This document shows, piece after piece, positions 14,328-56,818 of a DNA stretch of 56,818 nt (position 1 is the stretch's first letter; every line of letters starts with the position of its first letter). The stretch spans positions 1,013,810 through 1,070,627 of the forward strand of contig NZ_RDBN01000005.1 of assembly GCF_008042075.1 (NCBI RefSeq). Direction: 5' to 3'. Under the pieces are notes generated by a model that ran no database searches, was not told the DNA's origin, and saw nothing but the letters and a program-made list of their open reading frames with translations. This DNA is from Streptomyces sp. UW30 (GTDB taxonomy: Bacteria > Actinomycetota > Actinomycetes > Streptomycetales > Streptomycetaceae). Position numbers and translations under genes: made by a program.

Positions 14328-16016
14328 GTGGCGCAGGTGCCGCAGACATTCTTCGATGCTCTCGCGGTGCGCACCTGGTGCGGTCTCGCGCTGGAGTCGC
14401 TCGGCCGCGCGCGTGAGGAGATCGACGCGATCAACGTCTACCCCGTGGCCGACGGGGACACCGGGACGAACCTGTATCTGACCGTGGAGTCGTCGGTGGC
14501 GGCCGTGGAGGCCGTCTTCACCGCCTACGACGTGGGCAAGCCCAGCCTCGCGGTCGCCGCCCGCGCGATGGCGCACGGCGCCCTCATAGGTGCCCGCGGG
14601 AACTCCGGGACGATCCTCGCCCAGCTGCTGCGGGGCATGGCCCAGGTGCTCGCCGACGACGGTGAGACGGCTCACACCGACGGCTCCGGTCTGCGCGACG
14701 CCCTGCGGCGGGCCGCCGACTCCGCCCGCGAAGCCGTGGCCCACCCCGTCGAGGGCACCGTCCTCACGGTCGCCTCAGCCGCCGCCGACGCGGCCCACGG
14801 TGCCGCGGGCGACGACTGCGGGAGCGTCGCGCGGGCGGCCTACGAGGGCGCGCGTGCCGCGCTCGCCGCTACGCCCCGACAGCTGGCCGTCCTGGAGCGC
14901 GCGGGGGTGGTCGACGCCGGCGGGCGTGGGCTGCTGGCGGTGCTGGGCGCGCTGGTGGAGACGTTCACGGGGGAGGCGGTGCCCGCGGCCCCCGGCGGGC
15001 ACGCGCGCGTGGCGAGCGCTTCGCCCGGGGCCCCGGCCGCCGACGGCGCCTTGCTCGCCGATGCCGAGGACTGCGCCGACGTGCCGGAGGCCGGCGGTCC
15101 CGCCTTCGAAGTGATCTACCTCCTGGAGGCCGAGGACGCGGCCGTGGCGCGGCTGCGGGCACGGCTCGACGGGCTCGGGGACTCGCTCGTGATCGTCGGC
15201 GGTGACGGACTGTGGAACGTCCATGTGCACGTCGACGACGCGGGGGCCGCCGTGGAGGCGGGCGTCGAGGCCGGGCGGCCGTACCGGATCCGGATCACCC
15301 ACTTCGGGGCCGGCGACGCGCACACCACCGGCGAGCGGCTGCCCCGGGAGCGGGTCCAGCGGGCCGTCGTCGCCGTCGTGCCCGGCGAGGGCCTGGCCGG
15401 GCTGTACGGCGAGGCCGGCGCGACCACCGTCCTCGCCCGCCCCGGCGAGCCGCCCGCCAGCGGAGAGCTGGTCGAGGCCCTGCGGCGGGCCCACGCGCGC
15501 GAGGTCGTGCTGCTGCCCAACGACGCCGAACTGCGCCACACCGCGGCCGCCGCGGCCGAGCAGGCCCGCGTGGAGGGCATCCGCGTGGCGCTGATCCCCA
15601 CCCGCTCCGCGGTCCAGGGCATCGCCGCGCTCGCCGTGCACGAGCCGGACCGCCGCTTCGACGAGGACGTCGTGTCGATGACGTCGGCGGCCGGTGCGAC
15701 CCGCTACGCCGAGGTCGCCGTCGCCGAACGCCAGTCCTGGACCATGGCCGGCATCTGCCAGGCCGGCGACGTCCTGGGCCTCATCGACGGCGACGTGGCA
15801 GTGATCGGCACGGACGTCACCGCCACCGCAGAGAGCGTCCTCGACCGGATGCTGTCCGCAGGCGGCGAGCTCGTCACCCTCGTCCTCGGTGACGAGGCGC
15901 CCGAGACGATCGCCGAGCACCTCGAAGCACGCGTGCGTGAGTCCTACCTCGCTGTCGACACGGTGGTGTACCGCGGCGGGCGGCAGGGGGCGCTGCTGCT
16001 CATCGGCGTGGAGTGA
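14328..16016 (+). CDS. DAK-domain (FakA-like) fatty acid kinase
   Basis: A 562-residue protein. The N-terminal DhaL/DAK2 domain (about residues 1-200) has the ATP/Mg motifs NVYPVADGDTGTNL, ARGNSGTILAQLLRGM and DAGGRGLLA. The remaining part (about 240-562) resembles the FakA middle and C-terminal domains, with alpha/beta DegV-related character. FakA phosphorylates fatty acids bound by DegV/FakB carriers; no DegV gene lies adjacent here. In Actinobacteria this gene classically sits immediately upstream of recG, but here the HSP90-TPR pair separates them. The GTG at 14328 has AAGGAGG five bases upstream. Confidence 0.85.
   Translation: MAQVPQTFFDALAVRTWCGLALESLGRAREEIDAINVYPVADGDTGTNLYLTVESSVAAVEAVFTAYDVGKPSLAVAARAMAHGALIGARGNSGTILAQLLRGMAQVLADDGETAHTDGSGLRDALRRAADSAREAVAHPVEGTVLTVASAAADAAHGAAGDDCGSVARAAYEGARAALAATPRQLAVLERAGVVDAGGRGLLAVLGALVETFTGEAVPAAPGGHARVASASPGAPAADGALLADAEDCADVPEAGGPAFEVIYLLEAEDAAVARLRARLDGLGDSLVIVGGDGLWNVHVHVDDAGAAVEAGVEAGRPYRIRITHFGAGDAHTTGERLPRERVQRAVVAVVPGEGLAGLYGEAGATTVLARPGEPPASGELVEALRRAHAREVVLLPNDAELRHTAAAAAEQARVEGIRVALIPTRSAVQGIAALAVHEPDRRFDEDVVSMTSAAGATRYAEVAVAERQSWTMAGICQAGDVLGLIDGDVAVIGTDVTATAESVLDRMLSAGGELVTLVLGDEAPETIAEHLEARVRESYLAVDTVVYRGGRQGALLLIGVE
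15001..15010. repeat. Palindromic 10-mer ACGCGCGCGT (first of ten copies)
   Basis: Identical copies start at 15001, 16141, 17545, 17911, 19176, 34946, 42228, 51923, 52157 and 56429, all inside coding regions. Eight of the ten extend to the 12-bp palindrome CACGCGCGCGTG. Nine of ten are read as NNA-CGC-GCG-CGT (X-Arg-Ala-Arg). The sequence is fully alternating purine-pyrimidine, hence Z-DNA-prone. The count was made by eye. Confidence 0.7.
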
Positions 16017-16029
16017 GCCCGGCCGGGAC

Positions 16030-18972
16030 CTACGCCTCGTCCTGCTCCTCCACGACCTGGAGCATCTGCCCGGCCTCCGCGCGCCGCTCCCGCGCCGCCT
16101 CGTCGGCCTCGTCGACGCCGTCGTACGCCGCGAGCACGGCACGCGCGCGTGCCGCCGCCTCGGCCGGACGGCTCAGGTCGGCCTCCAGCCAGCCCGCGGC
16201 GAGCTCGGCGCCGGTACGGCTGTGCAGGGCGTCGTCGCCGAGGGCGGCGAAGACCGCGACGGCCTGCGTCACCTGGGACAGGGCCTCCTCCAGCGCGCCG
16301 CGGATCGACTCGTCCTCGGCATCCTCCGCGGCGGAACGCGCCAGGAGGTCGCTGAACTGGCGGTGGGTGTGGCCGAGTTCGGCGACGAGCCGCTCGCGGG
16401 CCTCCTCGTCGTCGACCGCCTCCAGCGCCGCCCGGCACTCCTCGACCGCGCTCGCCATCAGCGCCGGAGCCGTGTCCTGCCCGCCTTCCACGTCCTCCTC
16501 GCCCAGCGCCAGCCACGCGCGGGCGCGCAGGGACCGCACCAGGCCGTGGACATTGCCGACGGAGCGCCACAGCGTGCCCGCGCGCGCGTACGCCTGGTCC
16601 GCCTCGGCGTGCAGGCCCGCGTGGCCCAGGGACTCGGCTGCGAGGTGGGCGAGGGTGGCGTGGTCGTGCTGCTCGGGCCAGTGCCGGGCGATCTCGGCGG
16701 CCTGAAGCCGGCGTTCGGCCGCCTCGCGGTGCTCGCCGAGCTCGCTCAGGCAGTCGCCGAGCCACCACTGCGTCTGGACGACCGCCCCGTCGCCGTGCGT
16801 CTCGGCGGACAGGTCGACGAGCGCCGACTCCAGCACCTCGGCGGCCTCGGCGAACCGTCCCTGCCGCAGCAGGAACCCGCCCAGCTGCTGCCGCGCCCAG
16901 GCGCCCAGCGTGCGGCTCTCGCCCGCCTCGTCGGCCCAGTGGGCGGCCTCCAGGGCGTGCTCCGCGGCCTCCTCGGACAGCCCCCGGCCGCCGAGCACCT
17001 CGGCCAGCTGGAGGTGCAGCTGCGCCCGCCCCGCGGCCTCCAGGTGCGGCCCGCCGTGCTCCAGGGCCGCCCGCAGCGCCCGCTCGGCCTGCGCGGTGTC
17101 GCCGAGATGGTGCGCGAGCCCGGCCAGCCGGGCCTCGTACTCCACCGCGAACCACGGCAGCCCGGCCCCGACGAACGCCGCCGCGGCCCGCGCGAACAGC
17201 TCCGCGGCCCCCTCCACGTTCCCCGCGAGCGCCGCCAGTTCCGCGAGCATCGCCTGCGCCTCAGCGATCCGTGCGGCGAGCCGTACGTCGTCCCGGGACT
17301 GCCCGTCGACGAGCGCGAGCACCTCACGGGCGGCGATCTCGGCGCCGGCCGCCGACTGCGGCGCCGCGTCCTCGGCCTCGTGCACCTGCCGCATCAGGAT
17401 CCGCGCCCGGCTCATCAGCACGGCCGCCGTCTGCCGCAGGCCCGTGCCGTCCTCGGCGTACAGCGCGAGGACCCGGTCGTACAGGTCGGCGATCGCCGTG
17501 AGGGCCTCGGACACCTCGCCCTGGAGCGCCCGTACGTACGCTCCACGCGCGCGTGCCGCCAGCGCCTCACCGGGGTCGCCCGCCTCCGCGTACAGCCCCG
17601 CCGCCTCCTCGAACAGGGCGACGCCCTCGGGGCCCAGGTCCATCGCCCGGTGGTCGGCGATCTCCGCGCGGTCCCGGGCGTCCAGCTCGACGCCCTCGGC
17701 GGCCCGCGAGACGGCCGCCCACGCCTCGACGGCGCCTGGCTGGAGGGTGTCCGACAGCCGCCGTGCCTCGGCGATCAGCGCCGGCAGGCCGGGCCGCGGG
17801 CCCGGGTCCTGCGGCGCGTTCGACGCGGCGGGCGCGGGCACCGACGGTGTCGGCCGTGCCGCCGTACGCACCCCCAGCGGCAGCCGCTCCACCAGCGGGC
17901 GCTGCTCCATACGCGCGCGTGCCCGCTCGCTGATGTGCGTCGTGCCGTTGCGCTCGTCGAAGCGCGCGGCCAGGGCGAGGGCCTCCTCGCGCGCGTGGGC
18001 GGCGAGTTCGCGGGCGGTCCAGGTGCGGCCTGCCGGACCGGGCACCTGCTGCGCGCCCAGCCCGAGCGCGCCCAGGCGGTCCATGAGCAGGGCCACCACC
18101 GACATGAACTCCAGCTTGCTGCGCGGATGCCCGTCGTCCGTGAAGTACGCCGGCCGCTCCGCTAGCAGCTCCAGGCCGCGCGCCTCGTTGCCGGTCAGCA
18201 CACAGAACTCGACGTGGTCCGCGTACGCCCCGCGCATGCTCTCCATGGCCCGCACGAGCCTGAAGCCCCGCAGATGGTTGGCGCGGGCCTCGTCCACGCG
18301 GCCCAGGCGCAGCAGCGGCGTCAGGGAGGACGCGAGGACCGTGTGCGGCTCGTGGGCGCAGGTGAACTCGCCCTCCAGGACCGGCGCCCACAGCCGCAGC
18401 GCCTCGGTGTCCTGGCCCCGCTCCGCCTGCCACCACCCCTGCCCGTGCAGCTCGCACGCGTGGCAGTCGGCCATGCTGTCGCGGTCCGCGCCCAGCCAGG
18501 CGCCGTACGCCCGCTCCGCCCGCGCCACGTCTCCGACATGCGCGGCCACGCTGAACTCGGCGCCGCGCACGGCCCGTTCGGAGTGCCCGGCGAGCCGGTA
18601 GCGGTGCTCCATCTCGCCGAGCCACTTCTCGATCGAGGCCAGCGGGACGTGCGGCTGGTCGAGCATGCCGGACGACATCCACTTGAAGACCCAGTGCAGC
18701 GAATGGATCTCGTACTCGTCGAAGTCCTCGGGCCGCTCGTCCCACATGCGCAGCAGACGCGCGAAGGGGACGAACATCTTGCCCTTCTCGGAGCTGTAGT
18801 TGTAGACCTTCAGCTGGTGCCCGAGCGCCTCGATCACGGCCAGCGGGACGTTCAGCTTCTCCGCCTCGGCGAGCAGCTGCTCCGCGCGCGCGTTGCGGGC
18901 CGGACCCTCCGGTTCCTCGCCGTTCTCCGCCATCGCCCGGCGCAGCGAGTCGAAGTCGGTGATCTCGCTCAT
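16030..18972 (-). CDS. Large TPR-repeat protein paired with HSP90
   Basis: A 980-residue cytoplasmic protein without signal peptide or membrane segments. The N-terminal part (1-360) is helical with an unusual CHACELH cluster (C170, C173, H176). A Pro/Ala-rich linker covers about 365-395. The C-terminal 580 residues are a long run of amphipathic helix pairs with TPR-like spacing (A-x-x-G-D..A and WW..G-x-C-x-x-L-G patterns). It starts with ATG overlapping the HSP90 stop (TGATG), so translation is coupled to the upstream ATPase. By analogy with eukaryotic TPR co-chaperones it may be a dedicated partner or client scaffold of the HSP90. Function is inferred only from this pairing. It contains three copies of the ACGCGCGCGT palindrome. 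Confidence 0.8.
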   Translation of the reverse strand: MSEITDFDSLRRAMAENGEEPEGPARNARAEQLLAEAEKLNVPLAVIEALGHQLKVYNYSSEKGKMFVPFARLLRMWDERPEDFDEYEIHSLHWVFKWMSSGMLDQPHVPLASIEKWLGEMEHRYRLAGHSERAVRGAEFSVAAHVGDVARAERAYGAWLGADRDSMADCHACELHGQGWWQAERGQDTEALRLWAPVLEGEFTCAHEPHTVLASSLTPLLRLGRVDEARANHLRGFRLVRAMESMRGAYADHVEFCVLTGNEARGLELLAERPAYFTDDGHPRSKLEFMSVVALLMDRLGALGLGAQQVPGPAGRTWTARELAAHAREEALALAARFDERNGTTHISERARARMEQRPLVERLPLGVRTAARPTPSVPAPAASNAPQDPGPRPGLPALIAEARRLSDTLQPGAVEAWAAVSRAAEGVELDARDRAEIADHRAMDLGPEGVALFEEAAGLYAEAGDPGEALAARARGAYVRALQGEVSEALTAIADLYDRVLALYAEDGTGLRQTAAVLMSRARILMRQVHEAEDAAPQSAAGAEIAAREVLALVDGQSRDDVRLAARIAEAQAMLAELAALAGNVEGAAELFARAAAAFVGAGLPWFAVEYEARLAGLAHHLGDTAQAERALRAALEHGGPHLEAAGRAQLHLQLAEVLGGRGLSEEAAEHALEAAHWADEAGESRTLGAWARQQLGGFLLRQGRFAEAAEVLESALVDLSAETHGDGAVVQTQWWLGDCLSELGEHREAAERRLQAAEIARHWPEQHDHATLAHLAAESLGHAGLHAEADQAYARAGTLWRSVGNVHGLVRSLRARAWLALGEEDVEGGQDTAPALMASAVEECRAALEAVDDEEARERLVAELGHTHRQFSDLLARSAAEDAEDESIRGALEEALSQVTQAVAVFAALGDDALHSRTGAELAAGWLEADLSRPAEAAARARAVLAAYDGVDEADEAARERRAEAGQMLQVVEEQDEA

Positions 18973-20807
18973 CAGCGGCCTCCCTCGCCGTTCGTGGCCC
19001 ACTCCAGCAGACCGATGAAGGCCCGGTTCAGCAGCGCCGAGTCGGCGGGCCTGAGCGGACGCTGCGCCATCAGCAGGGCCTGCCCGTACAGCGACTCGGT
19101 GGCGGTGCCGATCAGCTCCGGATCGCCCAGCGAACCGATCCGCCGGATCAGCGGGTTGAGGTGGTTCAGCACCAGACGCGCGCGTGGCGCGCTGCCGCGC
19201 AGGGACCCGAGGATGCCCGCCCACAGGTCGTCGGCCTGCTCCTCGGCCTGCGCGCGCGCCTGCTCGTGCCGGGCCGCCCGGTCGTCCAGGTGCAGCGCGG
19301 GCACGGACAGCGGATGGAAGGCGCGCAGGACGACGTCACAGCCCAGCGGGTCGAGTTTCGCCCGCGCGGCCGCCAGGAAGCCCGACAGGGCCAGCTCCTC
19401 GGCCGGGTCGACCGAGTCCAGATGGGCGGTCACGGTCTCCGCGTCCAGCTCGGCGACGACCGTCCCCGGCCGCACCGACGGCAGCGCCTCGATCAGCTCG
19501 CTGTCGTACGTGTAGCCGCCGTTGACCACCCCGACGCCCTGCGCGGACGCGATCGGGGCGACCTGCCGGTACTCCTCGACGGTCCGCGTGAAGTGCACCA
19601 CCGCGTGCCGCTGCGCGAACTCCTCCAGGGACAGCCGTCCGTCGGACGTCTCGAAGGGCAGCCACGGCAGCATCGTGCGCAGCATCTCCTTGTCGTGCCG
19701 CGCGAGGGACTTCACGCCCAGGTGGTGCACGGACAGGAACGCCGCCAGCCGTTCCGGATCCCCGGCCGCGAGGCCCGTGAGCCAGGACCGGATCCTTGTC
19801 CCCAGCGCCTCCCGTACGGCCGCCAGCGTCTCGTCCTCGTACAGCGACTCGCGCGACGCCGTCGGCCGCAGGCTGTCGGTGTCCAGGACGCAGCGCACGA
19901 AGAACGCCCAGTCGGGCAGCAGCTGTTCGGCCCGCTCGGTCAGCAGCATGCCCTTGAGGTGGACGCGATGACCGGCCCGCTGGGCGGGGCTGACCGCGGC
20001 CGGCAGCACGTACGCGACCCCGCGGATCCCGGCGAGCGGCACGTCCAGCTCGATCGAGTCCAGCGGGGTGAAGCCGAACAGGTCCTGACAGTGCCGGGCC
20101 AGGGCCACCCTCCGGTTGGCGGGGGAGGGGTACGACCGGTCCCAGGGCGCGGGCAGATCGGTGACGGCCTCGCCGCCGACCCGTACGTCGTACGGCAGCA
20201 GTGAGCCGAAGTCCCGCGCCAGCGCCAGGACCCGGTCCTCGGCCAGCCACTCGGCGGCCCCCGCCCGCGCCACCAGGTGCACGGTCGTGCCCGGTTCGGG
20301 GCGGGCGTCGTCCGGCAGCGTCCGCACGGTGTACGAACCGTCGTCCGTCGCCGTCCACTCCACCGGCGGCGCGTCCGGCGTACGGGCGCTGCGGCTGACC
20401 ACCCGGATCCGCTCGGCGACCACGAAACACGCCAGCAGACCGATGCCGAACTGCCCCAGGAAGTCGGACCGGGCCTCCTGAAGCCCCTCGGCGCGCTTGG
20501 AGCTGCGGCCGATGGTCGCGAGGAGGCTGTGCACGTCCGCCTCGGTCAGCCCGATCCCGGAGTCCTCGACGCGCAGGGTGCCCGACTCGGCGTACAGCCG
20601 CACCGCGGCGGGCGCGCCCGGCTCCTCGGCGCGTCTGGCGGTGATGGCGTCGACGGCGTTCTGCAGCAGCTCGCGCAGATAGACCTTCGGACTGGAGTAG
20701 AGGTGGTGGGAGAGCAGGTCCACCAGACCGCGCAGGTCGACCTGGAACGTATGAGGTGACGGGGATGGCTGAGGTGCCTGGGATGACTGTGAGGTCTGGG
20801 AGTCCAT
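18972..20807 (-). CDS. HSP90-family (HtpG-like) ATPase
   Basis: A 611-residue GHKL ATPase. The Bergerat-fold motifs are intact: ELLQNAVDAI (E46, N50, D53), EDSGIGL (D82, G84, G86) and the GQFGIG lid (118-123). A middle domain with SRESLYEDE follows, then a C-terminal dimerisation part. There is an extra Gln/Ser/Pro-rich N-terminal leader (residues 3-18). It is a divergent actinobacterial HSP90 type rather than a close HtpG. The C-terminus (NGEGGR) lacks the eukaryotic MEEVD TPR-binding motif. It is divergent from recG and overlaps the downstream TPR gene by 1 nt. A chaperone activity is family knowledge; its clients are unknown. Confidence 0.88.
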   Translation of the reverse strand: MDSQTSQSSQAPQPSPSPHTFQVDLRGLVDLLSHHLYSSPKVYLRELLQNAVDAITARRAEEPGAPAAVRLYAESGTLRVEDSGIGLTEADVHSLLATIGRSSKRAEGLQEARSDFLGQFGIGLLACFVVAERIRVVSRSARTPDAPPVEWTATDDGSYTVRTLPDDARPEPGTTVHLVARAGAAEWLAEDRVLALARDFGSLLPYDVRVGGEAVTDLPAPWDRSYPSPANRRVALARHCQDLFGFTPLDSIELDVPLAGIRGVAYVLPAAVSPAQRAGHRVHLKGMLLTERAEQLLPDWAFFVRCVLDTDSLRPTASRESLYEDETLAAVREALGTRIRSWLTGLAAGDPERLAAFLSVHHLGVKSLARHDKEMLRTMLPWLPFETSDGRLSLEEFAQRHAVVHFTRTVEEYRQVAPIASAQGVGVVNGGYTYDSELIEALPSVRPGTVVAELDAETVTAHLDSVDPAEELALSGFLAAARAKLDPLGCDVVLRAFHPLSVPALHLDDRAARHEQARAQAEEQADDLWAGILGSLRGSAPRARLVLNHLNPLIRRIGSLGDPELIGTATESLYGQALLMAQRPLRPADSALLNRAFIGLLEWATNGEGGR

Positions 20808-23205: not shown

Positions 23206-23207
23206 GC

Positions 23208-32344: not shown

Positions 32345-32474
32345 CTTTCTTGCCCCCTGTTTACTGCCCCGCGCATCCTTTCACCCTCTTTAACGTCTGG
32401 TGTGCCCTGCACGTTCACCGGTGAAACCGTGGGTTCATGGAGCGAGACTTCCCCGGGAGGTAGAGTCCACCGGC

Positions 32475-35400
32475 GTGCACCTCAAGGCCCTGACCCTCCG
32501 AGGGTTCAAGTCGTTCGCCTCGGCGACCACGCTCCGGTTCGAGCCGGGCATCACGTGTGTCGTCGGTCCGAACGGCTCGGGCAAGTCCAACGTCGTGGAC
32601 GCGCTCAGCTGGGTCATGGGCGAGCAGGGTGCCAAGTCGCTGCGCGGCGGCAAGATGGAGGACGTCATCTTCGCCGGCACCACCGGCCGCCCGCCGCTGG
32701 GCCGCGCCGAGGTGTCGCTGACCATCGACAACTCCGACGGGGCACTGCCCATCGAGTACTCCGAGGTCACCATCACGCGGATCATGTTCCGCAACGGCGG
32801 CAGCGAGTACCAGATCAACGGCGACACGTGTCGCCTCCTCGACATCCAGGAGCTGCTCTCCGACTCCGGCATCGGCCGCGAGATGCACGTCATCGTCGGC
32901 CAGGGCCAGCTCGACTCCGTCCTGCACGCGGACCCCATGGGCCGGCGCGCCTTCATCGAGGAGGCCGCGGGCGTCCTCAAGCACCGCAAGCGCAAGGAGA
33001 AGGCGCTGCGCAAGCTGGACGCGATGCAGGCCAACCTCGCGCGCGTGCAGGACCTGACGGACGAACTGCGCAGACAGCTCAAGCCGCTCGGCCGCCAGGC
33101 GGCGGTCGCCCGCAGGGCCGCCGTCATCCAGGCGGATCTGCGCGACGCCCGGCTCCGCCTCCTCGCCGACGACCTCGTACGGCTGCGCGAGGCGCTGCAG
33201 GCCGAGGTCGCCGACGAGGCCGCGCTGAAGGAGCGCAAGGAGGCCGCCGAGCAGGATCTGAAGAAGGCGCTCCAGCGCGAGGCCCTCCTGGAGGAAGAGG
33301 TGCGCAGACTCACGCCGCGCCTCCAGCGGGCCCAGCAGACCTGGTACGAGCTGTCCCAGCTGGCCGAGCGGGTGCGCGGCACGATCTCGCTGGCCGACGC
33401 GCGGGTGAAGAGCGCGACGTCCGCGCCGCCGGAGGAGCGTCGGGGTCGCGACCCCGAGGACATGGAGCGTGAGGCCGCCCGCATCCGCGAGCAGGAGGCC
33501 GAGCTGGAGGCTGCGCTCGAAGCGGCCGAGCGGGCTCTGGAGGACACGGTCGCCCACCGCGCCGAACTGGAGCGGGAGCTCGCCCTCGAAGAGCGCCGGC
33601 TGAAGGATGTCGCCCGCGCCATCGCCGACCGGCGCGAAGGTCTGGCCCGGCTGAACGGCCAGGTCAACGCGGCCCGTTCGCGTGCCGCCGCCGCCCAGTC
33701 GGAGATAGAGCGCCTGGCAGCCGCACGGGACGAGGCCCAGGAGCGGGCCTTTTGCGCACAGGAGGAGTACGAGGCACTCAAGGCCGAGGTCGACGGCCTG
33801 GACGCCGGGGATGTGGAGCTCGCCGAGCAGCACGACGCGGCGAAGGCGCAGCTCACGCAGGCGGAGGCCGCCCTGACGGCGGCCCGCGAGGCGGCCACCG
33901 CGGCGGAGCGCAGCCGCGCCGCGACGCAGGCCCGCCGCGAGGCCCTGGCCCTCGGCCTGCGCCGCAAGGACGGCACGGGCGCGCTGCTCGGCGCGAAGGA
34001 CCGCCTCACCGGTCTGCTGGGTCCGGCCGCGGAACTGCTGACCGTGTCGCCGGGCCACGAGGTGGCGCTGGCGGCTGCCTTCGGCGCCGCGGCGGACGCG
34101 ATCGCGGTGACGTCACCGGCCGCGGCGGCGGAGGCGATCCGGCTGCTGCGCAAGCAGGACGGGGGACGGGCGGCGCTGCTGCTGAGCGGTACCCCCGACG
34201 GAGCGGGCCAGGAACCGAGGCCGGACGGGCCGCCGCACGCCGCCGACCTGGTCCGGGGTCCCCACGAGCTCATGCCCGCCGTACGCCGCCTCCTGCGGGG
34301 CATCGTCGTCGTCGCCACCCTCGAGGACGCCGAGGACCTCGTCTACGCCCACCCCGACCTGACCGCCGTGACCGCCGAAGGCGACCTGCTCGGGGCGCAC
34401 TTCGCGCACGGCGGGTCCGCCGGGGCGCCGAGCCTGCTCGAAGTGCAGGCCTCCGTGGACGAGGCCGCGGCCGAGCTGGAAGAGCTGGCCGTGCGGTGCG
34501 AGGAGCTGAGCGAGGCTCAGCACGCGGCGGGCGAGCGGCGCAAGGAGTGTGCCGCGTTCGTCGAGGAGCTGGGGGAGCGCCGCAGGGCGGCCGACCGGGA
34601 GAAGTCCTCCGTGGCGCAGCAGCTCGGCCGGCTCGCCGGGCAGGCGCGCGGTGCCGCGGGCGAGGCCGAGCGGTCCGTCGCCGCCGCCGCGCGGTCGCAG
34701 GAGGCGCTCGACAAGGCGCTGACGGAGGTCGAGGAGCTGGCCGAGCGGCTGGCCGTCGCCGAGGAGATGCCGGTCGAGGAGGAACCCGACACCTCCGTAC
34801 GGGACCGTCTCGCCGCCGACGGTGCCAACGCGCGCCAGACCGAGATGGAGGCCCGCCTCCAGGTCCGTACGCACGAGGAGCGGGTCAAGGGGCTGGCCGG
34901 ACGGGCCGACTCGCTCGACCGGGCCGCCCGCGCCGAACGAGAGGCACGCGCGCGTGCCGAGCAGCGGCGGGCGCGGCTGCGCCACGAGGCGGCCGTCGCG
35001 GAAGCCGTCGCCTCCGGTGCCCGGCAACTCCTCCTGCACGTCGAGGTCTCCCTCGCCCGCGCCGACGAGGAGCGCACCGCCGCCGAGGCCGCCAAGGCGC
35101 GCCGCGAGCAGGAACTCACGGCCGCCCGGAGCGAGGGCCGCGACCTCAAGGCCGAGCTCGACAAGCTGACCGACTTCGTCCACCGCGGCGAAGTCCTCGG
35201 CGCCGAGAAGCGGATGCGGATCGAGCAGTTGGAGACCAAGGCCCTGGAGGAGCTGGGCGTGGAGCCCGCCGGGCTCGTCTCCGAGTACGGCCCCCACCAG
35301 CTCGTGCCGCCCTCCCTGGCCGCCGAGGGCGAGCAGCTCCCGGAGGACCCCGAGCATCCCCGCAACCAGCCCAAGTCCTTCGTCCGGGCCGAGCAGGAGA

Positions 35401-41243: not shown

Positions 41244-41700
41244 GCCCCCTCCAACGGTCCAGTGCGCCGGTGGTTACGACGCGATAGCGGAACGTGACCC
41301 TGTGTGTTCCTCGGCGGCCGGGTACCCCTTGGCGTCGCTCGGTCCACGCGGCGCTTGGAAGTGCTCCGGGTTGTGGGCCGGGCAACACGCGCCCCTGAGT
41401 GCTTCGCTCCGCCCACTTCCGGCCGTCCTATGTCAAGTGAATCGCGTGGAGGCGACCGTGAGTTCATTCGAAGGGGTGGCGAATGGTGGCGATTCAGGGA
41501 TCGCCATGGCTGGAGCAGTGATCGTAGGATTACCGTGAGTGCACGAAGCTTCGGGGCACATGCGCTCGTGGGTATGCCGGGGGCAAGTCGGCTTTCCGTT
41601 CGAAGGGTGAGAACCGCCGGACGGCCGACCGTATTTACCGGCATTCTGATAGGGCTTGGCGCACTCGGTGACAAGTGGTCCAAGGGATGGGGGCGTTCCA
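41244..41700. other. Long nsdA upstream region without a confident gene
   Basis: This 457-bp region has mixed base composition and poor third-position GC. Apart from a Shine-Dalgarno-preceded mini-ORF at 41458 no coding signal is convincing. The length suggests an extended 5' leader or several regulator sites for nsdA and the divergent prim-pol gene. Confidence 0.5.
41458..41538 (+). CDS. Possible leader peptide with a TTA codon (upstream of nsdA)
   Basis: GTG 41458 is preceded by GGAGG with 5-nt spacing and opens a 26-codon frame (VSSFEGVANGGDSGIAMAGA...). Codon 25 is TTA (41530-41532), the rare leucine codon read only by the bldA tRNA. Third-position GC is only about 50%, so the peptide itself may not be under selection. 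It could still couple translation to bldA. Confidence 0.2.
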   Translation: MSSFEGVANGGDSGIAMAGAVIVGLP

Positions 41701-43194
41701 GTGAGCGGCAACAGCGGAAGCGGTACGAGTGCCGGTGGCGCATCGCACGCTGACAAGCGCCCGAACGAGCTTCTCACGTCCTGGTTCGTGCGCAGCGGCT
41801 GGTCGAAGGGCGAACTCGCCCGCCAAGTGAACCGCCGGGCCCGCCAGTTGGGCGCCAACCACATCTCCACCGACACCTCCCGCGTGCGCCGCTGGCTGGA
41901 CGGCGAGAACCCCCGCGAGCCGATCCCCAGGATCCTGTCCGAGCTGTTCTCCGAGCGGTTCGGCTGCGTCGTCTCCGTCGAGGACCTCGGCCTGCGTGCC
42001 GCCCGCCAGTCACCCTCCGTGTCCGGCGTCGACCTGCCCTGGACGGCCCCGCAGACGGTGGCCCTGCTCAGCGAGTTCTCGCGCAGCGACCTGATGCTGG
42101 CGCGGCGCGGCTTCCTCGGGAGCTCGCTGGCCCTGTCCGCGGGCCCGGCGCTCATCGAGCCGATGCAGCGCTGGCTGGTCCCCGCGCCGCCCGCCCCGTA
42201 CCAGGAGACCCGGCCCGTCCCGTCCTCACGCGCGCGTGGCCGGCTGTCCAAGCCCGAGCTGGACCTGCTGGAGTCCACCACCGTGATGTTCCGGCAGTGG
42301 GACGCCCAGTGCGGCGGCGGCCTGCGCCGCAAGGCGGTCGTGGGCCAGCTGCACGAGGTGACGGACCTGCTCCAGGAGCCCCAGCCCGAATCCACGACCC
42401 GCAAGCTGTTCAAGGTCGCCGCCGAGCTGGCGGAGCTGGCCGGCTGGATGTCGTACGACGTCGGGCTCCAGCCCACCGCGCAGAAGTACTTCGTCCTCGC
42501 GCTGCACGCCGCCAAGGAGGCCGGCGACAGGCCGCTCGGCTCGTACGTCCTGTCCAGCATGAGCCGCCAGATGATCCACCTCGGCCGGCCCGACGACGCG
42601 CTGGAGCTGATCCATCTCGCGCAGTACGGCAGCCGGGACTGCGCGAGCCCGCGCACCCAGTCGATGCTGTATGCGATGGAGGCTCGCGCGTACGCCAACA
42701 TGGGCCAGCCCGGCAAGTGCAAGCGGGCGGTCCGGATGGCCGAGGACACCTTCTCCGAGGCCGAGGACTGGGACGACCCGGACCCCGACTGGATCCGCTT
42801 CTTCTCCGAGGCCGAGCTGTACGGCGAGAACTCCCACTCCTTCCGCGACCTCGCCTATGTCGCCGGCCGCAGCCCGACGTACGCCTCGCTGGCCGAGCCG
42901 CTGATGCAGCAGGCCGTGGATCTGTTCGCGAAGGACGGCGAGCACCAGCGGTCGTATGCGCTGAACCTCATCGGGGTGGCCACGGTCCATCTGCTGCGGC
43001 GCGAGCCCGAGCAGAGCGCGGCCTGTGCCGAGCAGGCCATGCTCGTCGCCAAGAAGGTGCGCTCCGAGCGCGTCAACACTCGTATTCGAAAGACGGTCGA
43101 CACGGCCGTCCGCGACTTCGGGGATCTCGCCGAGGTCGTGGACCTGACGGACAAGCTCGCCGTCGAGCTCCCGGAGACCGCGGAGGCGGTCTGA
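41701..43194 (+). CDS. nsdA: NsdA, negative regulator of differentiation and antibiotic production
   Basis: A 497-residue regulator. After a Gly/Ser-rich start, residues 20-95 form an HTH-like region (SWFVRSGWSKGELARQVNRRA...RRWLDGENPREPIP). An internal RRGFLGSSLALSAG segment (about 139-152) follows, then a helical TPR-like domain from 190 to the end (YFVLALHAAKEAGDRPLGSYVL; AEQAMLVAKKVRSE). Disruption of this gene in S. coelicolor is known to enhance antibiotic production and sporulation. GTG 41701 gives the expected length. One ACGCGCGCGT lies in the linker (42228). Confidence 0.9.
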   Translation: MSGNSGSGTSAGGASHADKRPNELLTSWFVRSGWSKGELARQVNRRARQLGANHISTDTSRVRRWLDGENPREPIPRILSELFSERFGCVVSVEDLGLRAARQSPSVSGVDLPWTAPQTVALLSEFSRSDLMLARRGFLGSSLALSAGPALIEPMQRWLVPAPPAPYQETRPVPSSRARGRLSKPELDLLESTTVMFRQWDAQCGGGLRRKAVVGQLHEVTDLLQEPQPESTTRKLFKVAAELAELAGWMSYDVGLQPTAQKYFVLALHAAKEAGDRPLGSYVLSSMSRQMIHLGRPDDALELIHLAQYGSRDCASPRTQSMLYAMEARAYANMGQPGKCKRAVRMAEDTFSEAEDWDDPDPDWIRFFSEAELYGENSHSFRDLAYVAGRSPTYASLAEPLMQQAVDLFAKDGEHQRSYALNLIGVATVHLLRREPEQSAACAEQAMLVAKKVRSERVNTRIRKTVDTAVRDFGDLAEVVDLTDKLAVELPETAEAV

Positions 43195-49442: not shown

Positions 49443-51380
49443 ATGAGCAATGCCGCGCCACCGCGCAAGGCCCCTGACCAGCCGTGGCGCACCGAGGGCA
49501 CCCCGGACGAGCCGCCCAGGAAGTCCGGTGGCCGACGCCTACGCGGTCGCTGGTGGAGCCTGCTCCTCACCGCCGTGATCGTGTTCCTGCTGGCGTACAT
49601 CGGACTGACCTACCTCGACCAGGGCAACGAGCCGACGATCTCCTACACCGAGTTCAGCAGGCAGGTCGACGAGGGCAACGTCTCCAAGATCTACTCCAAG
49701 GGCGACGCCATCCAGGGCGAGCTCAAGAGCGCCAGGGACAAGCCCGACGGCGACGGCGACTACACCAAGTTCAAGACGCAGCGCCCCGCCTTCGCGGACG
49801 ACGAGCTCTGGCAGGAGCTGCGCAGTCACGACGTCACGGTGACCGCGGAGCCGGTCGTCAAGCAGCGCGGTCTCCTCGTCAATCTGCTGATCTCGCTGGC
49901 ACCGCTCGTGATCATCGTCGCGGTCTGGATCTTCGTCGCCCGGCGGTTCGCCGGGGGCCGCGGCGGCGCGGGCGGCATGTTCGGGCGCAAGGCGCCGCCC
50001 AAGCCGGTCGAGCTGCTGCCGGGCAAGGACCGTACGACGTTCGCCGATGTGGCCGGCATCGACGAGGTCAAGGGCGAACTGGACGACGTCGTCGACTTCC
50101 TGGAGCACCCCGACGCCTACCGCAGGATGGGCGCCAAGATGCCGCGCGGCGTACTGCTCGCGGGCTCACCCGGCACCGGCAAGACCCTGTTGGCGCGTGC
50201 GGTCGCGGGCGAGGCGGGCGTGCCGTTCTTCTCCGCCTCGGCGTCCGAGTTCATCGAGATGATCGTCGGTGTCGGCGCCTCCCGCGTCCGTGAGCTGTTC
50301 GCCGAGGCCCGCAAGGTGGCGCCGTCGATCATCTTCATCGACGAGATCGACACCATCGGACGGGTGCGCAGCGGGGGCGCGTCGGTGAGCGGTCACGACG
50401 AGCGCGAGCAGACCCTGAACCAGATCCTCACCGAGATGGACGGCTTCTCCGGCTCGGAGGGCGTGATCGTCATCGCGGCGACGAACCGCGCCGACATCCT
50501 GGACCCGGCACTGACCCGGCCCGGCCGCTTCGACCGGGTCGTCAACGTCTCCCCGCCGGACCGCCGCGGACGCGAGGCGATCCTGCGGATCCACACCCGC
50601 GACATCCCGCTCGCCGAGGACGTGGACCTGATCCAGCTCGCCCGCAAGACCCCGGGCATGACAGGCGCGGATCTGGCCAATCTCGCCAACGAGGGGGCGC
50701 TGCTGGCGGTCAAGAGGGGCCAGGAACAGGTGAGCGCCGCGGACCTCTCCGAGGCCCTGGAGAAGGTGCAGCTGGGCGCCGAACGCACCCTCGTGATGCC
50801 CGAGGAGGACCGCCGCCGCACCGCGTTCCACGAGAGCGGGCACGCCCTCCTCGGCATGCTGCAGCCGGGCGCCGACCCCGTCCGCAAGATCACCATCGTG
50901 CCGCGCGGCCGGGCACTCGGCGTGACGATGTCGACCCCCGAGGTGGAGCGGTACGCGCACTCGGAGGAGTACCTGCGCGGCCGGATCATCGGGGCGCTGG
51001 GCGGTATGGCGGCCGAGGACGTGGTCTACGGGGTCGTCACCACCGGAGCGGAGAACGACCTCGAACAGGTCACCAACATCGCGCGCGGGATGGTGGCCCG
51101 CTGGGGCATGAGTGAGCGCGTCGGCCGGCTGTCCGCCCTGCCGAGCGACGCCCAGCAGGCGTACGGACTCTCCGCCGCCCCGCAGACCCTCGACGTCATC
51201 GACTCCGAGATGCGCCGGATCGTCGACGCCTGCTACGAGGAGGCCTGCCGCAAACTCCGCGACCACCGCGGGAAGCTGGACGCGCTGGCGGAGGCCCTGC
51301 TGGAGAACGAGACCCTGGAGGAGGTGGACGCCTACCGGATCGCGGGGATCACAAGGCTGGCCAAGGACACGGAGGCTTAG
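49443..51380 (+). CDS. ftsH: FtsH-type membrane AAA+ metalloprotease (paralogue with altered pore loop)
   Basis: A 645-residue FtsH. Two membrane helices (about 38-57 and 147-165) flank an extracytoplasmic domain. The AAA+ domain has Walker A GSPGTGKT (241-248), Walker B IIFIDEID and second region of homology RPGRFDR. The zinc protease motif is HESGH (463-467) with the third Asp ligand in GAENDLEQ. The usual pore-loop MFVG is MIVG here (I274), removing the aromatic residue that normally grips substrates. It is shorter at the C-terminus than many FtsH proteins. Streptomyces has a main ftsH elsewhere (family knowledge), so this is probably a paralogue. It overlaps the methyltransferase 3' end by 4 bp, tail to tail. 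Confidence 0.9.
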   Translation: MSNAAPPRKAPDQPWRTEGTPDEPPRKSGGRRLRGRWWSLLLTAVIVFLLAYIGLTYLDQGNEPTISYTEFSRQVDEGNVSKIYSKGDAIQGELKSARDKPDGDGDYTKFKTQRPAFADDELWQELRSHDVTVTAEPVVKQRGLLVNLLISLAPLVIIVAVWIFVARRFAGGRGGAGGMFGRKAPPKPVELLPGKDRTTFADVAGIDEVKGELDDVVDFLEHPDAYRRMGAKMPRGVLLAGSPGTGKTLLARAVAGEAGVPFFSASASEFIEMIVGVGASRVRELFAEARKVAPSIIFIDEIDTIGRVRSGGASVSGHDEREQTLNQILTEMDGFSGSEGVIVIAATNRADILDPALTRPGRFDRVVNVSPPDRRGREAILRIHTRDIPLAEDVDLIQLARKTPGMTGADLANLANEGALLAVKRGQEQVSAADLSEALEKVQLGAERTLVMPEEDRRRTAFHESGHALLGMLQPGADPVRKITIVPRGRALGVTMSTPEVERYAHSEEYLRGRIIGALGGMAAEDVVYGVVTTGAENDLEQVTNIARGMVARWGMSERVGRLSALPSDAQQAYGLSAAPQTLDVIDSEMRRIVDACYEEACRKLRDHRGKLDALAEALLENETLEEVDAYRIAGITRLAKDTEA

Positions 51381-52234
51381 GGGACCCGCGCGATCAGGTA
51401 CCGGAACACGTTCGGCATCCACACCGTGCCGTCCTGCCGCTGGTGCGGGTGCAGTGCCTCGGTCAACTCCTTGTCGACCTGGGCCTGGTCGGTCGCGGAG
51501 ACCGCCGCGTCGAACAACCCCGTCGACAGCAGGCCCCGTACGGCACTGTCGACGTCCGCGTACCCGAAGGGGCAGGCCACCCGCCCGGAACCGTCGGGCC
51601 TGAGGCCCGCACGCTGGGCGACCTCCTCCAGGTCGTCACGCAGGGCCGGACGCCAACTGCCCGTGCTGCGCAGGGGATCGGCCAGCTTGGTGGCGACGCG
51701 CAGCACCGACGACGTGGCGCAGCGCTCCGGCGGACCCCAGCCGGCGAGCACCACCGGCGCCCCCCGCTCGGCGAGCGCAGTGACGGCCGCGAGCGTCTCA
51801 CCGAGGCCCTCCGAGTCACCCGCGAGGCACCCGATGGGCTCGAACGCGGTCACCAGCGTGTACGCGGGTGTCCGTGCGTCGGACGCGTCCCCGGGCGAGC
51901 CCTCGACGAGCCGGGTCTCGGCACGCGCGCGTGTGCCCCACGCCTCGGGCAGCAGCCGCTGCCGGGCGAGCCTCAGCCGTTCGGGGGAGTCGGACTCGAC
52001 GCCGGTGACGGCCGCGCCTCTGGACGCCGCCATCAAAAGGGCGAGTCCGCTGCCGCAGCCGAGGCCCAGCAGCCGGGTGCCCGGGCCCACCTCCAGTCGC
52101 TCGTAGACGGCCTCGTAGAGCGGAACCAGCATCCGCTCCTGGATCTCGGACCAGTCACGCGCGCGTGCACACAGGTCCACACGGGGCGTCGCGCCCGCGT
52201 GAGGTGGGTGCTGCCGCACGAGCGTAGGTGTCAT
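51377..52234 (-). CDS. SAM-dependent methyltransferase-like protein
   Basis: A 285-residue class I methyltransferase. The SAM-binding motif LGLGCGSGLALLMAA (about 56-70) and the acidic residue VTGVESD (second strand) are clear. The C-terminal half (CPFGYADVDSAVRGLLSTGLFDAAV) resembles the tail of ubiquinone/menaquinone-type or small-molecule methyltransferases. The substrate is unknown. It starts at ATG 52234 and is divergent from proS with a 199-bp gap. Two ACGCGCGCGT palindromes lie inside it, 234 bp apart (51923 and 52157). Confidence 0.82.
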   Translation of the reverse strand: MTPTLVRQHPPHAGATPRVDLCARARDWSEIQERMLVPLYEAVYERLEVGPGTRLLGLGCGSGLALLMAASRGAAVTGVESDSPERLRLARQRLLPEAWGTRARAETRLVEGSPGDASDARTPAYTLVTAFEPIGCLAGDSEGLGETLAAVTALAERGAPVVLAGWGPPERCATSSVLRVATKLADPLRSTGSWRPALRDDLEEVAQRAGLRPDGSGRVACPFGYADVDSAVRGLLSTGLFDAAVSATDQAQVDKELTEALHPHQRQDGTVWMPNVFRYLIARVP

Positions 52235-52396
52235 GTAAAGCGCCCCATTCCGACGAGAGTTGTCACTGTGCCCGATGTCGTAGCGCCCTGTGACGAGGCG
52301 CTCACGCTCCCCCGTATGCCAGGAAACTCCGCACCCGACGTCGCGTCCAGGGGTCTCGGGGCCCGGCTTGTGGGTTCTCTGCGTCCGTGGCGGAAA

Positions 52397-52427
52397 TTCA
52401 CATTCCGGCAACATGGGCCCGTACCAT
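52397..52427 (+). promoter_or_regulatory. proS promoter predicting a leaderless mRNA
   Basis: TTCACA (52397-52402), a 19-bp spacer and TACCAT (52422-52427) end 6 bp before the proS ATG at 52434. Transcription would then begin at or next to the start codon. No Shine-Dalgarno is visible. Confidence 0.5.
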
Positions 52428-52433
52428 CTGGCC

Positions 52434-53849
52434 ATGGCAAAGGCACTCGTTCTTACGCCACGGGCACATGACTTCCCGCGCTGGTACCAGGACCTGATCA
52501 ACAAGGCCGAGCTCGCCGACAACGGTCCGGTGCGCGGCACGATGGTGATCCGGCCGTACGGGTACGCGCTGTGGGAGCGGATGCAGGCCGAGATGGACGC
52601 CCGCATCAAGCAGGCCGGTGCCGCTAACGCCTACTTCCCGCTCTTCATCCCCCAGTCGTATCTGACGCGGGAGGCCGAGCACGTCGAGGGCTTCGCCCCC
52701 GAACTCGCCGTCGTCACGCACGGCGGCGGCAAGGAGCTGGAGGAGCCCGTCGTCGTCCGGCCCACCTCCGAGACGATCATCAACGACTACTTCGCCAAGT
52801 GGGTGCAGAGCTACCGCGACCTGCCGCTGCTGATCAACCAGTGGGCGAACGTGGTGCGTTGGGAGATGCGCCCGCGCGTGTTCCTCCGCACGACCGAATT
52901 CCTCTGGCAGGAGGGCCACACCGCGCACGCCACCTACGAGGACGCCCGGGACTACGCCGCGCACATCCACAAGGAGGTGTACGCCGACTTCATGGTCGAC
53001 GTCCTCGGCATCGACGTCGTCCTGGGCCGCAAGACCGCCAGTGAGCGCTTCGCCGGGGCCGTCAACACCCTCACCCTCGAAGCGATGATGGGCGACGGCA
53101 AGGCCCTCCAGATGGGCACGAGCCATGAGCTCGGCCAGAACTTCGCCAAGGCCTTCCACACCCGCTACCTGTCGAAGGAGGGCCGAGAGGAGTACGTCTG
53201 GCAGACCTCCTGGGGCTCCTCCACCCGCATGGTCGGCGGCCTGATCATGGCGCACGGCGACGACGACGGACTACGCGTGCCGCCGCGGCTCGCGCCGATC
53301 CAGGCCGTCGTCCTGGCGATCAAGGGGGACGAGCCGGTTCTGGCCAAGGTCCGCGAGATCGGCGCCCGGCTGGCCGCGGCGGGCATCCGCGTCCAGGTCG
53401 ACGACCGCACGGACACGCCGTTCGGGCGCCGCGCGGTCGACTGGGAACTCAAGGGCGTGCCCGTACGGATCGAGGTAGGGCCCCGTGACCTGGACAACGG
53501 CACGGCGATGCTGGCCCGCCGGATCCCGGGAGGCAAGGAACCGGTCCCGCTCGACGCACTGACCGGGCTGCTCCCCACGATCCTCGACGAGGACCAGGCG
53601 CTGCTGCTGCGTCAGTCCCGCGAGCGCCGCGAATCCCGTACGTCGGACGTGTCGACGGTCGAGGAAGCGCTCGAGGCGGCGGCCGCCGGCGGCTGGGCAC
53701 GCGTCCCGTGGGCCACGCTCGGCGAAGAAGGCGAGGCCAGGCTGGCCGAGCAGGCCGTGACCGTACGGTGTCTGGTCGCCGAGGACGGGTCGGTGCCGGA
53801 CGCCGACGACGCACCCGGTAACGTCGCCGTCGTCGCGCGCGCTTATTGA
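52434..53849 (+). CDS. proS: Prolyl-tRNA synthetase, archaeal/eukaryotic type
   Basis: A 471-residue class IIa synthetase without the editing (INS) domain of the standard bacterial ProRS. The DFPRWYQDLINKAELADN start, VRPTSETIINDYFAKW (motif 1/2 region), RTTEFLWQEGHTAHAT (motif 2), TSHELGQNFAKAF and the anticodon-binding domain ending in TVRCLVAEDGSVPDAD match the archaeal/eukaryotic form. Catalytic motifs are intact, so it should charge tRNA-Pro. Streptomyces normally has a bacterial-type ProRS elsewhere (family knowledge), which would make this a second enzyme. ATG 52434 is chosen; the in-frame ATG at 52413 would add seven residues. Confidence 0.92.
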   Translation: MAKALVLTPRAHDFPRWYQDLINKAELADNGPVRGTMVIRPYGYALWERMQAEMDARIKQAGAANAYFPLFIPQSYLTREAEHVEGFAPELAVVTHGGGKELEEPVVVRPTSETIINDYFAKWVQSYRDLPLLINQWANVVRWEMRPRVFLRTTEFLWQEGHTAHATYEDARDYAAHIHKEVYADFMVDVLGIDVVLGRKTASERFAGAVNTLTLEAMMGDGKALQMGTSHELGQNFAKAFHTRYLSKEGREEYVWQTSWGSSTRMVGGLIMAHGDDDGLRVPPRLAPIQAVVLAIKGDEPVLAKVREIGARLAAAGIRVQVDDRTDTPFGRRAVDWELKGVPVRIEVGPRDLDNGTAMLARRIPGGKEPVPLDALTGLLPTILDEDQALLLRQSRERRESRTSDVSTVEEALEAAAAGGWARVPWATLGEEGEARLAEQAVTVRCLVAEDGSVPDADDAPGNVAVVARAY

Positions 53850-54076: not shown

Positions 54077-54103
54077 GGAACACAGCGGCACTCCGGCTCG
54101 TTG
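54077..54103 (+). promoter_or_regulatory. SigR-type (ECF) promoter before the metallopeptidase gene
   Basis: GGAAC (54077-54081), exactly 18 bp, then GTTG (54100-54103) fits the SigR-type consensus GGAAT-N18-GTT with one change. The GTG start codon begins 8 bp after GTTG, suggesting a leaderless transcript. Confidence 0.5.
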
Positions 54104-54110
54104 TCATTAC

Positions 54111-55479: not shown

Positions 55480-55481
55480 GC

Positions 55482-55721: not shown

Positions 55722-55743
55722 CGCCGAACACACAGCACCGGCT

Positions 55744-55779
55744 CGGGCCGGGGAGGGCCACTGGGCCGTCCCCGGCCCG
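55744..55779 (+). terminator. Internal hairpin between khpA and rimM
   Basis: CGGGCCGGGGA (55744-55754) pairs perfectly with TCCCCGGCCCG (55769-55779). Inner GGGCC/GGCCC-like bases extend it. No U-tract follows, and an operon gene lies 27 bp later, so it may attenuate or be a processing site rather than a full stop. Confidence 0.55.
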
Positions 55780-55806
55780 TAGTCGTCCGACAGGAGAGCA
55801 AGCACA

Positions 55807-56358
55807 GTGCAGCTGGTAGTCGCACGGATCGGCCGCGCCCACGGCATCAAGGGCGAGGTCACCGTCGAGGTACGTACGGACGAGCCGGAACTCAGGCTCG
55901 GCCCGGGCGCCGTCCTCCTCACGGACCCCGCCGCCACGGGCCCCCTCACCATCGAGACCGGGCGCGTCCACAGCGGACGCCTTCTCCTGCGCTTCGAGGG
56001 TGTGAAGGACCGCACCGGCGCCGAGGCCCTCCGCAACACCCTCCTCATCGCCGAGGTCGATCCGGAGGAGCTGCCGGAGGAGGAGGACGAGTACTACGAC
56101 CACCAGCTCATGGACCTCGACGTGGTGACGAAGGACGGAGTCGAGGTCGGCCGCATCACCGAGATCTCGCACCTGCCCTCGCAGGACCTCTTCATCGTGG
56201 AGCGGCCCGACGGGAGCGAGGTGATGATCCCCTTCGTCGAGGCGATCGTCACCGAGATCGACCTGGAGCAGCAGCGCGCGGTCATCACGCCGCCCCCGGG
56301 TCTGATCGACGACCGCGCGGAGATCGCCTCGGCGCGCGACGCGGAGGACGAGAGCTGA
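55807..56358 (+). CDS. rimM: Ribosome maturation factor RimM
   Basis: A 183-residue protein that helps assemble the 30S head. The N-terminal beta-barrel starts [18 protein letters not shown]. The PRC-barrel follows, with [11 protein letters not shown] and [13 protein letters not shown] short acidic tail ends the protein. GTG 55807 follows CAGGAG. Its stop overlaps the trmD start by 1 nt (TGATG). Confidence 0.95.
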
Positions 56359-56818
56359 TGAGGCTCGACGTCGTCACGATCTTCCCCGAGTACCTGGAGC
56401 CCCTGAACGTCTCCCTGGTCGGCAAGGCACGCGCGCGTGGGCAGCTGAACGTCCAGGTGCACGACCTGCGCGGCTGGACGTACGACCGCCACAACACGGT
56501 CGACGACACCCCGTACGGCGGCGGCCCCGGCATGGTCATGAAGACCGACCCCTGGGGCGAGGCGCTGGACTCCGTCCTGGCCGACGGCTACGAGAGCGGC
56601 TCCGGCGCGCCCACCCTGATCGTCCCCACCCCCAGCGGCCGCCCCTTCACCCAGGAACTCGCCGTCGAACTGTCCGAGCGGCCCTGGCTGATCTTCACGC
56701 CGGCCCGCTACGAGGGCATCGACCGCCGCGTCATCGACGAGTACGCCACCCGGATGCCCGTCCACGAGGTGTCCATCGGCGACTACGTCCTCGCCGGCGG
56801 GGAGGCGGCCGTACTGGT
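56358..56818 (+). CDS. trmD: tRNA (guanine37-N1)-methyltransferase TrmD (3' truncated)
   Basis: The first 153 residues of TrmD are in the window, running off the right edge. The start [16 protein letters not shown], the SAM-binding DDTPYGGGPGMVMK and the knot region ARYEGIDRRVID plus YVLAGGEAA are typical of SPOUT-family TrmD, which methylates G37 next to the anticodon to prevent frameshifting. ATG 56358 shares its A with the rimM stop. One ACGCGCGCGT palindrome lies at 56429. Confidence 0.95.
   Translation, partial: MRLDVVTIFPEYLEPLNVSLVGKARARGQLNVQVHDLRGWTYDRHNTVDDTPYGGGPGMVMKTDPWGEALDSVLADGYESGSGAPTLIVPTPSGRPFTQELAVELSERPWLIFTPARYEGIDRRVIDEYATRMPVHEVSIGDYVLAGGEAAVL

Follow-up and report, generated by a model that had tools for sequence, protein, structure and literature searches.

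An exact 12-bp palindrome iterated across the chromosomes of part of the genus Streptomyces

The perfect palindrome CACGCGCGCGTG (the 12-mer) was found in large excess in the genome of Streptomyces sp. UW30, of which we analysed one stretch of 56,818 bases from a single contig (the window) that holds ordinary core genes (YloV/FakA-like, smc, nsdA, proS and trmD). The 9.9 Mb genome contains 173 copies of the 12-mer (17.5 per Mb) but only 4 copies of the same word read backward (GTGCGCGCGCAC), which served as a control. High copy numbers also occur in many other Streptomyces genomes, and the word is kept at the DNA level in genes whose peptide can be encoded without it. It is well supported that selection acts on the DNA word, and the copies may well be cis-acting sites to which a sequence-specific and probably dimeric protein binds in a chromosome-wide role.

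The original prediction had reported ten copies of a shorter word, ACGCGCGCGT (the 10-mer), in the window, with less than one expected by chance. All ten were recovered, and dinucleotide shuffles of the window gave a mean of 0.45 and a maximum of 3 copies (n = 100). Eight of the ten extended to CACGCGCGCGTG, as predicted, and the 12-mer is the basic unit. Genome-wide, the 10-mer was present in 283 copies compared to 46 of its backward control. Enrichment was also seen outside the window, as 165 of the 173 12-mers lie beyond it. Codon usage did not explain the excess: when the window genes were shuffled synonymously (n = 100), the 12-mer appeared on average 0.06 times (maximum 1) compared to 8 observed, and the 10-mer 0.31 times (maximum 2) compared to 10 observed. 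In the called genes of 457 kb of contiguous DNA from the same genome (L001-L020 plus the window, hot spot included), 10 12-mers were observed and 0.33 were expected from synonymous shuffles (maximum 2, n = 100); with the window taken out, 3 were found in genes compared to 0.3 expected. The window is a local hot spot, since 8 of the 11 12-mers of the 457 kb fall within its 57 kb. Genes were called by a simple codon-score caller of our own rather than a published one. The whole-genome counts and the contiguous 457 kb were taken as the fair counts for the excess; other regions had mostly been chosen for holding copies or for matching the hot spot, and their densities were not used for it.

A scan for palindromes gave the same picture. 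In the 457 kb, the 12-mer was the top ungapped 12-bp palindrome, with 11 copies compared to 0.12 expected under a fourth-order Markov model. The same scan recovered 6 copies of GTTTCACGTGAAAC, which we take to be parS, the ParB site, in the DNA fetched from the complete genome G092. This site resembles the 12-mer in being a perfect palindrome in a genome that also carries the 12-mer; it is a different word, however, and copies of CACGCGCGCGTG extend over megabases. Neither 440 kb of the low-copy genome G005 nor 80 kb of two other low-copy genomes (G019 and G063) revealed a comparable ungapped 12-bp palindrome, and a substitute palindrome in such genomes was rejected on these data. Separately, some gapped 11-base palindromes were more frequent than crudely expected, whether the DNA came from high- or low-copy genomes; in the 457 kb, CTCGACNNNGTCGAG and GAAGCGCTTC each occurred 7 times, compared to 0.37 and 0.7 expected under the crude model.

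The word alternates purines and pyrimidines, and a tendency to form Z-DNA had been proposed. This was not supported, because the backward word alternates equally and is rare. Furthermore, genes of the same genome beyond the window avoided other CG runs, with 8-mers and 10-mers reaching 0 to 0.58 of the shuffle expectation and the alternating words CGCGCGCGCG and GCGCGCGCGC 0.30 and 0. Counting against this rejection, CGCGCGCGCG stood at 1.34 of the number expected from shuffles where high-copy relatives were examined in the hot-spot region, and it was 13-fold commoner in high- than in low-copy DNA (38 vs 2 copies). The wider explanation, in which the excess is a by-product of GC content, of codon usage or codon-pair bias, or of Z-forming alternation, could draw on the slight excess of CGCGCGCGCG in those relatives, on a genome of ~70% GC and on a common reading of the 12-mer (His-Ala-Arg-Val) that uses only codons ending in G or C. 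It is nevertheless hardly credible given the synonymous shuffles and the backward word, given that 0-4 copies are all that 55 of the 120 Streptomyces genomes contain and that the low-copy regions fetched are of similar GC, and given that the codons GCA and CGT are fixed in the smc genes that carry the word (see below).

To describe the distribution of the 12-mer, copies were counted in 120 further Streptomyces genomes. A bimodal pattern emerged: 52 genomes had at least 40 copies (high-copy genomes), 12 had 10-39, one had 5-9 and 55 had 0-4. The high-copy genomes had a median of 115 copies and a maximum of 218, the latter in the complete genome G049; densities in high-copy genomes were roughly 5-25 per Mb. 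The backward control averaged 3.9 copies over the 120 genomes, with a maximum of 12. Outside the genus, 16 genomes from an order-level sample of 197 had 0-5 copies, and 354 genomes from a class-level sample of 394 had 0-8. In the samples counted, the high-copy state was thus confined to part of Streptomyces.

The site in smc illustrates what is being conserved. In a first comparison, our genome and 7 of 7 high-copy relatives spelled the peptide Ala-Arg-Ala-Arg as GCA CGC GCG CGT, while 3 of 3 low-copy relatives encoded the same peptide with other codons. We then used a degenerate pattern for Ala-Arg-Ala-Arg, which gave at least 119 matching stretches, 80 of them as named Streptomyces loci; 43 of the 80 had the exact palindrome, and the other 37 encoded the peptide differently. 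Likewise, the ARAR peptide of trmD is unchanged in two low-copy genomes (G063 and G005) but is written there with other codons. The view in the original prediction that the DNA palindrome, and not the Arg-Ala-Arg peptide, is kept was borne out by these codon differences under an unchanged peptide and by the use of all three reading frames. On the synonymous shuffles and the smc and trmD comparisons, a codon or peptide artefact was rejected.

An smc tree was built with the site removed (91 tips, midpoint-rooted); our genome groups there with named Streptomyces. All 51 carriers of the smc copy fell in one clade of 65 tips (support 0.93), and none was found among the 26 tips outside it. The carrier state required 13 parsimony changes, compared to a mean of 29.9 and a minimum of 21 in 1000 label shuffles. 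For 49 of the 80 smc loci, the 12-mer was also counted across the whole genome. All 25 carriers counted had 44-196 copies. The 13 non-carriers within the clade had 2, 87, 79, 65, 81, 37, 31, 2, 2, 93, 69, 49 and 14 copies, so that three relatives inside the clade (Streptomyces sp. WM6378, S. fragilis and Streptomyces sp. SID8352) stand at 2 copies each, and the 11 genomes outside the clade had 8, 2, 17, 186, 2, 1, 17, 2, 0, 0 and 0.

The copies in the window were compared with the orthologous regions of 20 relatives, 40 kb each except for one of 23.5 kb. The ten copies are as follows.

15000..15011, the 12-mer in the YloV/FakA-like gene (14217-16016, + strand), read as His-Ala-Arg-Val; kept in 3 of 6 aligned high-copy genomes.
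16140..16151, the 12-mer in an open reading frame (ORF) of 1064 aa (16030-19224, - strand); kept in 6 of 9 aligned high-copy genomes.
17544..17555, the 12-mer in the same 1064-aa ORF (16030-19224, - strand); kept in 7 of 9 aligned high-copy genomes.
17911..17920, the 10-mer ACGCGCGCGT, one mismatch from the 12-mer (TACGCGCGCGTG).
19176..19185, the 10-mer ACGCGCGCGT, one mismatch from the 12-mer (GACGCGCGCGTG).
34945..34956, the 12-mer in smc (32400-36029, + strand), read as GCA CGC GCG CGT; present in 11 of 12 high-copy genomes and in none of 7 low-copy ones.
42227..42238, the 12-mer in nsdA (41668-43194, + strand); poorly conserved, in 1 of 11 aligned high-copy genomes.
51922..51933, the 12-mer in an ORF with a weak methyltransferase match (51377-52609, - strand); kept in 1 of 5 aligned high-copy genomes.
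52156..52167, the 12-mer in the same ORF (51377-52609, - strand), 122 bp before proS (52290); present in all 5 aligned high-copy genomes and in none of 4 low-copy ones.
56428..56439, the 12-mer in trmD (56358 onward, + strand), read as GCA CGC GCG CGT; kept in 1 of 3 high-copy and 0 of 3 low-copy genomes.

Overall, for the eight 12-mers, 35 of 60 aligned high-copy cells preserved the word, compared to 0 of 27 low-copy cells; the genomes being related, these cells are not independent observations. By comparison, GC-matched control 12-mers aligned in at least 8 high-copy genomes (n = 871) were kept in 24.5% on average, and 9 of them were kept in all. The smc site at 34945 was the best conserved copy with broad sampling. 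Some positions of the 12-mer are stable and others turn over. Shifted copies, 18-55 bases off, were present in other genomes at the window-equivalent positions 15018 and 15042 (two genomes) and at 51977 (two genomes), and their nearness to two of our positions suggests that approximate place may matter; the copy at 15018 lies in the FakA-like gene of G002. The 1064-aa ORF carries four of the ten 10-mers; NCBIfam gave no match for it, TPR matched only below threshold, and its site positions did not align in G092 or in three low-copy genomes.

Nine of the ten window copies had been described as read NNA-CGC-GCG-CGT. With our ORF models the number was eight: the 10-mers at 16141, 17545, 17911, 34946, 42228 and 56429 are read in this way by called genes, and those at 51923 and 52157 by arithmetic on the ORF at 51377-52609, which was taken from the ORF list and was not called by the gene caller used for the frames. 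The exceptions were 15001 (His-Ala-Arg-Val) and 19176 (third frame). This preference did not hold generally in a larger sample of 121 12-mers, from 60 regions of our genome and G092. Of these, 108 were in predicted genes and 13 between genes, and the genic copies comprised 58 read as CAC-GCG-CGC-GTG (His-Ala-Arg-Val), 36 as NCA-CGC-GCG-CGT (X-Arg-Ala-Arg) and 14 as ACG-CGC-GCG (Thr-Arg-Ala-Trp/Cys). The word is indifferent to gene function, as the host genes are unrelated (for example NuoG-like, FAD-binding, GH35, HrpB-like, SMC and TrmD). G or C predominated next to the 12-mer, at 298 of 326 flanks in G092.

This placement bears on the idea that the copies are operators of one large transcription-factor regulon, which we regard as improbable. 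A perfect 12-bp palindrome is typical of a dimer operator, there are intergenic copies, a GntR/UTRA regulator gene adjoins one of them (L036), and a GntR-aminotransferase gene (L036) has a further copy where it begins. However, the concentration at promoters that operators would show was not seen, with the predicted coding fraction of 20 G092 regions at 0.78-0.95 and the great majority of copies inside unrelated genes in all three frames. In addition, only one of the 10 genes scanned beside intergenic copies encodes a regulator. That the word signals self-recognition or transfer, for instance in DNA processing, in recombination, or in uptake or conjugation, appears very improbable. Dispersed intragenic copies of one exact word do resemble DNA uptake signals, but the density of the 12-mer (~5-25 per Mb) is far below that of Chi or of uptake signals. 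Moreover, signals of the uptake or Chi type are mostly not perfect palindromes.

On the chromosome, the copies clustered at the kilobase scale. Among the 95 copies mapped in the first 4.475 Mb of G092, 27 of 94 gaps were shorter than 5 kb, compared to 10.3 under a uniform model and 12.4 when sites were jittered by up to 100 kb. The left outer arm, the arm for which end depletion was assessed, was empty in two complete genomes (first copies: G092, 365 kb; G013, 728 kb). Streptomyces chromosome arms turn over fast.

The strictness of the word was assessed from its variants. Among single-mismatch variants, those at the outer two positions were commoner than most inner ones. The inner octamer CGCGCGCG occurred at 0.58 of the shuffle expectation in genes of our genome outside the window and at 1.62 in the hot-spot region of high-copy relatives; without an A before and a T after it, these values were 0.49 and 0.83. 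When high- and low-copy fetched DNA were compared, CGCGCGCG was 3.6-fold commoner in the former, the shifted word GCGCGCGC 1.2-fold and CACGCGTG 4.6-fold (27.1 vs 5.9 per Mb), while CACGCGCGTG was found at 10.4 vs 0 per Mb; the choice of hot-spot regions inflates these ratios for related words. Half-matching versions may be weak sites or decayed copies.

A resemblance to HIP1 of cyanobacteria (GCGATCGC) had also been proposed. In the excerpted text of PMC4390886, HIP1 is described as an 8-bp word with 300-2700 copies per Mb that is low or nearly absent in some relatives. The resemblance holds in part: the 12-mer is likewise an iterated palindrome in strong excess that is low in some relatives, whereas it is far sparser (17.5 vs 300-2700 per Mb), is 12 bp rather than 8 bp long, gives mixed evidence of an enriched core and is not consistently accompanied by an m5C methyltransferase. 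A HIP1-like origin, in which an orphan DNA methyltransferase coupled to mismatch repair would make or maintain the palindrome, is in our judgement unlikely. It would fit the large excess, the loss in some relatives and the variants favouring the outer two positions, all features shared with HIP1 as excerpted from PMC4390886; the gap between the CGCGCGCG and GCGCGCGC ratios and the excess of CGCGCGCG in the hot spot of relatives also speak for it. On the other side stand the values below expectation for the inner octamer in our own genes and, without the flanking A and T, in both sets. In addition, a PF00145 (m5C) match was not detected in 14 of the 52 high-copy genomes, including the complete G049 with its 218 copies, where 11 of these negatives were listed without a match, 3 follow from absence in the matched list and the family covers m5C enzymes. 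Twelve bp is also long for a methyltransferase site. An m5C methyltransferase was rejected as the partner on the PF00145 result, and the HIP1-like methylation mechanism is weakened.

Of the two kinds of protein first suggested, nucleoid or methylation, a nucleoid protein remains the best candidate. A perfect strand-symmetric 12-mer that is kept as DNA in any reading frame is the kind of site expected under selection by a dimeric DNA-binding protein, and a chromosome-wide role is likelier than control of a regulon or of promoters because the copies show no promoter preference. We propose that CACGCGCGCGTG would be recognised as double-stranded DNA by a putative dimeric protein that most members of one large Streptomyces clade would possess, and that the 40-218 sites per chromosome, partly fixed in place, could serve nucleoid anchoring, compaction, segregation or coordination with division, in a manner like that of Noc, SlmA or MatP. 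More specifically, but tentatively, the 12-mers could be sites of a nucleoid factor subject to gain and loss that anchors or compacts the linear chromosome in step with sporulation septation, as a functional counterpart of Noc and SlmA.

These systems provide the closest comparison. According to the excerpted text of PMC4726725, Bacillus subtilis has about 70 Noc-binding sites (NBS), which are 14-bp palindromes, Escherichia coli has 24-52 SlmA-binding sites (SBS), and both are under-represented near the terminus. Similarly, the 12-mer is a short, dispersed palindrome in tens to hundreds of copies per chromosome (40-218 in 52 of 120 genomes), its copies per Mb are of the same order, and the left outer arm, empty in G092 and G013, may be a comparable under-represented region. 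By contrast, its sequence is different, no ParB paralogue tracks it, and it occurs in only part of a genus and is known from sequence alone. The excerpted text of PMC4852455 reports Streptomyces to be without Noc and SlmA homologues.

Several results weigh against the 12-mers being sites of such a protein. With 55 of 120 genomes doing without the motif, its role cannot be universal in the genus. An ori- or ter-centred pattern was not proved, the close map being that of the left 4.475 Mb of one genome. Turnover is fast at some positions, such as 42227, kept in 1 of 11 genomes, and 10 of the 13 counted genomes within the clade that do not have the smc copy still have 14-93 copies. Streptomyces triticagri (L108) lies outside the clade on the SMC tree and has 186 copies without an smc copy, so the history is not simply one gain plus losses; either a separate gain or retention while its relatives lost the state would account for it. 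The recognised word may also be looser than the 12-mer, since CGCGCGCG and CACGCGTG are commoner in high-copy DNA as well. Finally, no binding protein was found by the scans directed at one, which covered HTH_ParB, PF00145 and the genes beside intergenic copies.

As to individual candidates, a ParB paralogue of the Noc type was rejected, given that a single HTH_ParB match was present in 27 of 52 high-copy and 21 of 55 low-copy genomes. This rejection is qualified by two strong HTH_ParB matches in our own genome, of 126.6 and 124.8 bits (C141 1740959-1741249 and C144 501-791), where second matches of other genomes reached at most 64.2 bits among the matches listed; this pair may reflect a genuine duplication, a plasmid or the assembly itself. 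SlmA belongs to the TetR proteins, which have too many paralogues for a comparison of this kind. An autoregulated binder gene beside intergenic copies was likewise rejected: the 10 genes scanned at 10 of the 13 copies, mostly one neighbour each, encode enzymes, transporters, unknowns and one GntR regulator.

No published report of the 12-mer was found in the literature searched as text, a scope that leaves aside figure logos and subscription papers, and this 12-bp word, present at about 40-220 copies on many Streptomyces chromosomes, appears to be undescribed. Being perfectly defined, it should make the putative DNA-binding protein findable, by simple affinity purification and by comparing species with and without the motif. 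Ready comparisons are offered by the natural losses (the three relatives with 2 copies) and by the high-copy S. triticagri lineage, which falls outside the main clade. Whether septum placement in Streptomyces is under negative control is left open in the excerpted text of PMC4852455 (2016), and chromosomal anchors in a large part of the genus, if the proposal is true, would give that question a handle.

Viral and plasmid arrays were also considered as possible carriers of the binder; the four inspected among the matches listed (80 of 120) did not lead to one. Three viral contigs (IMG/VR; L190, L217 and L250) of 46-49% GC contain groups of three copies of a longer repeat that includes CCACGCGCGCGTGG, and these repeats are probably unrelated to the chromosomal 12-mer. 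Two copies of the 12-mer, 50 bp apart, were present in L242 (62% GC).

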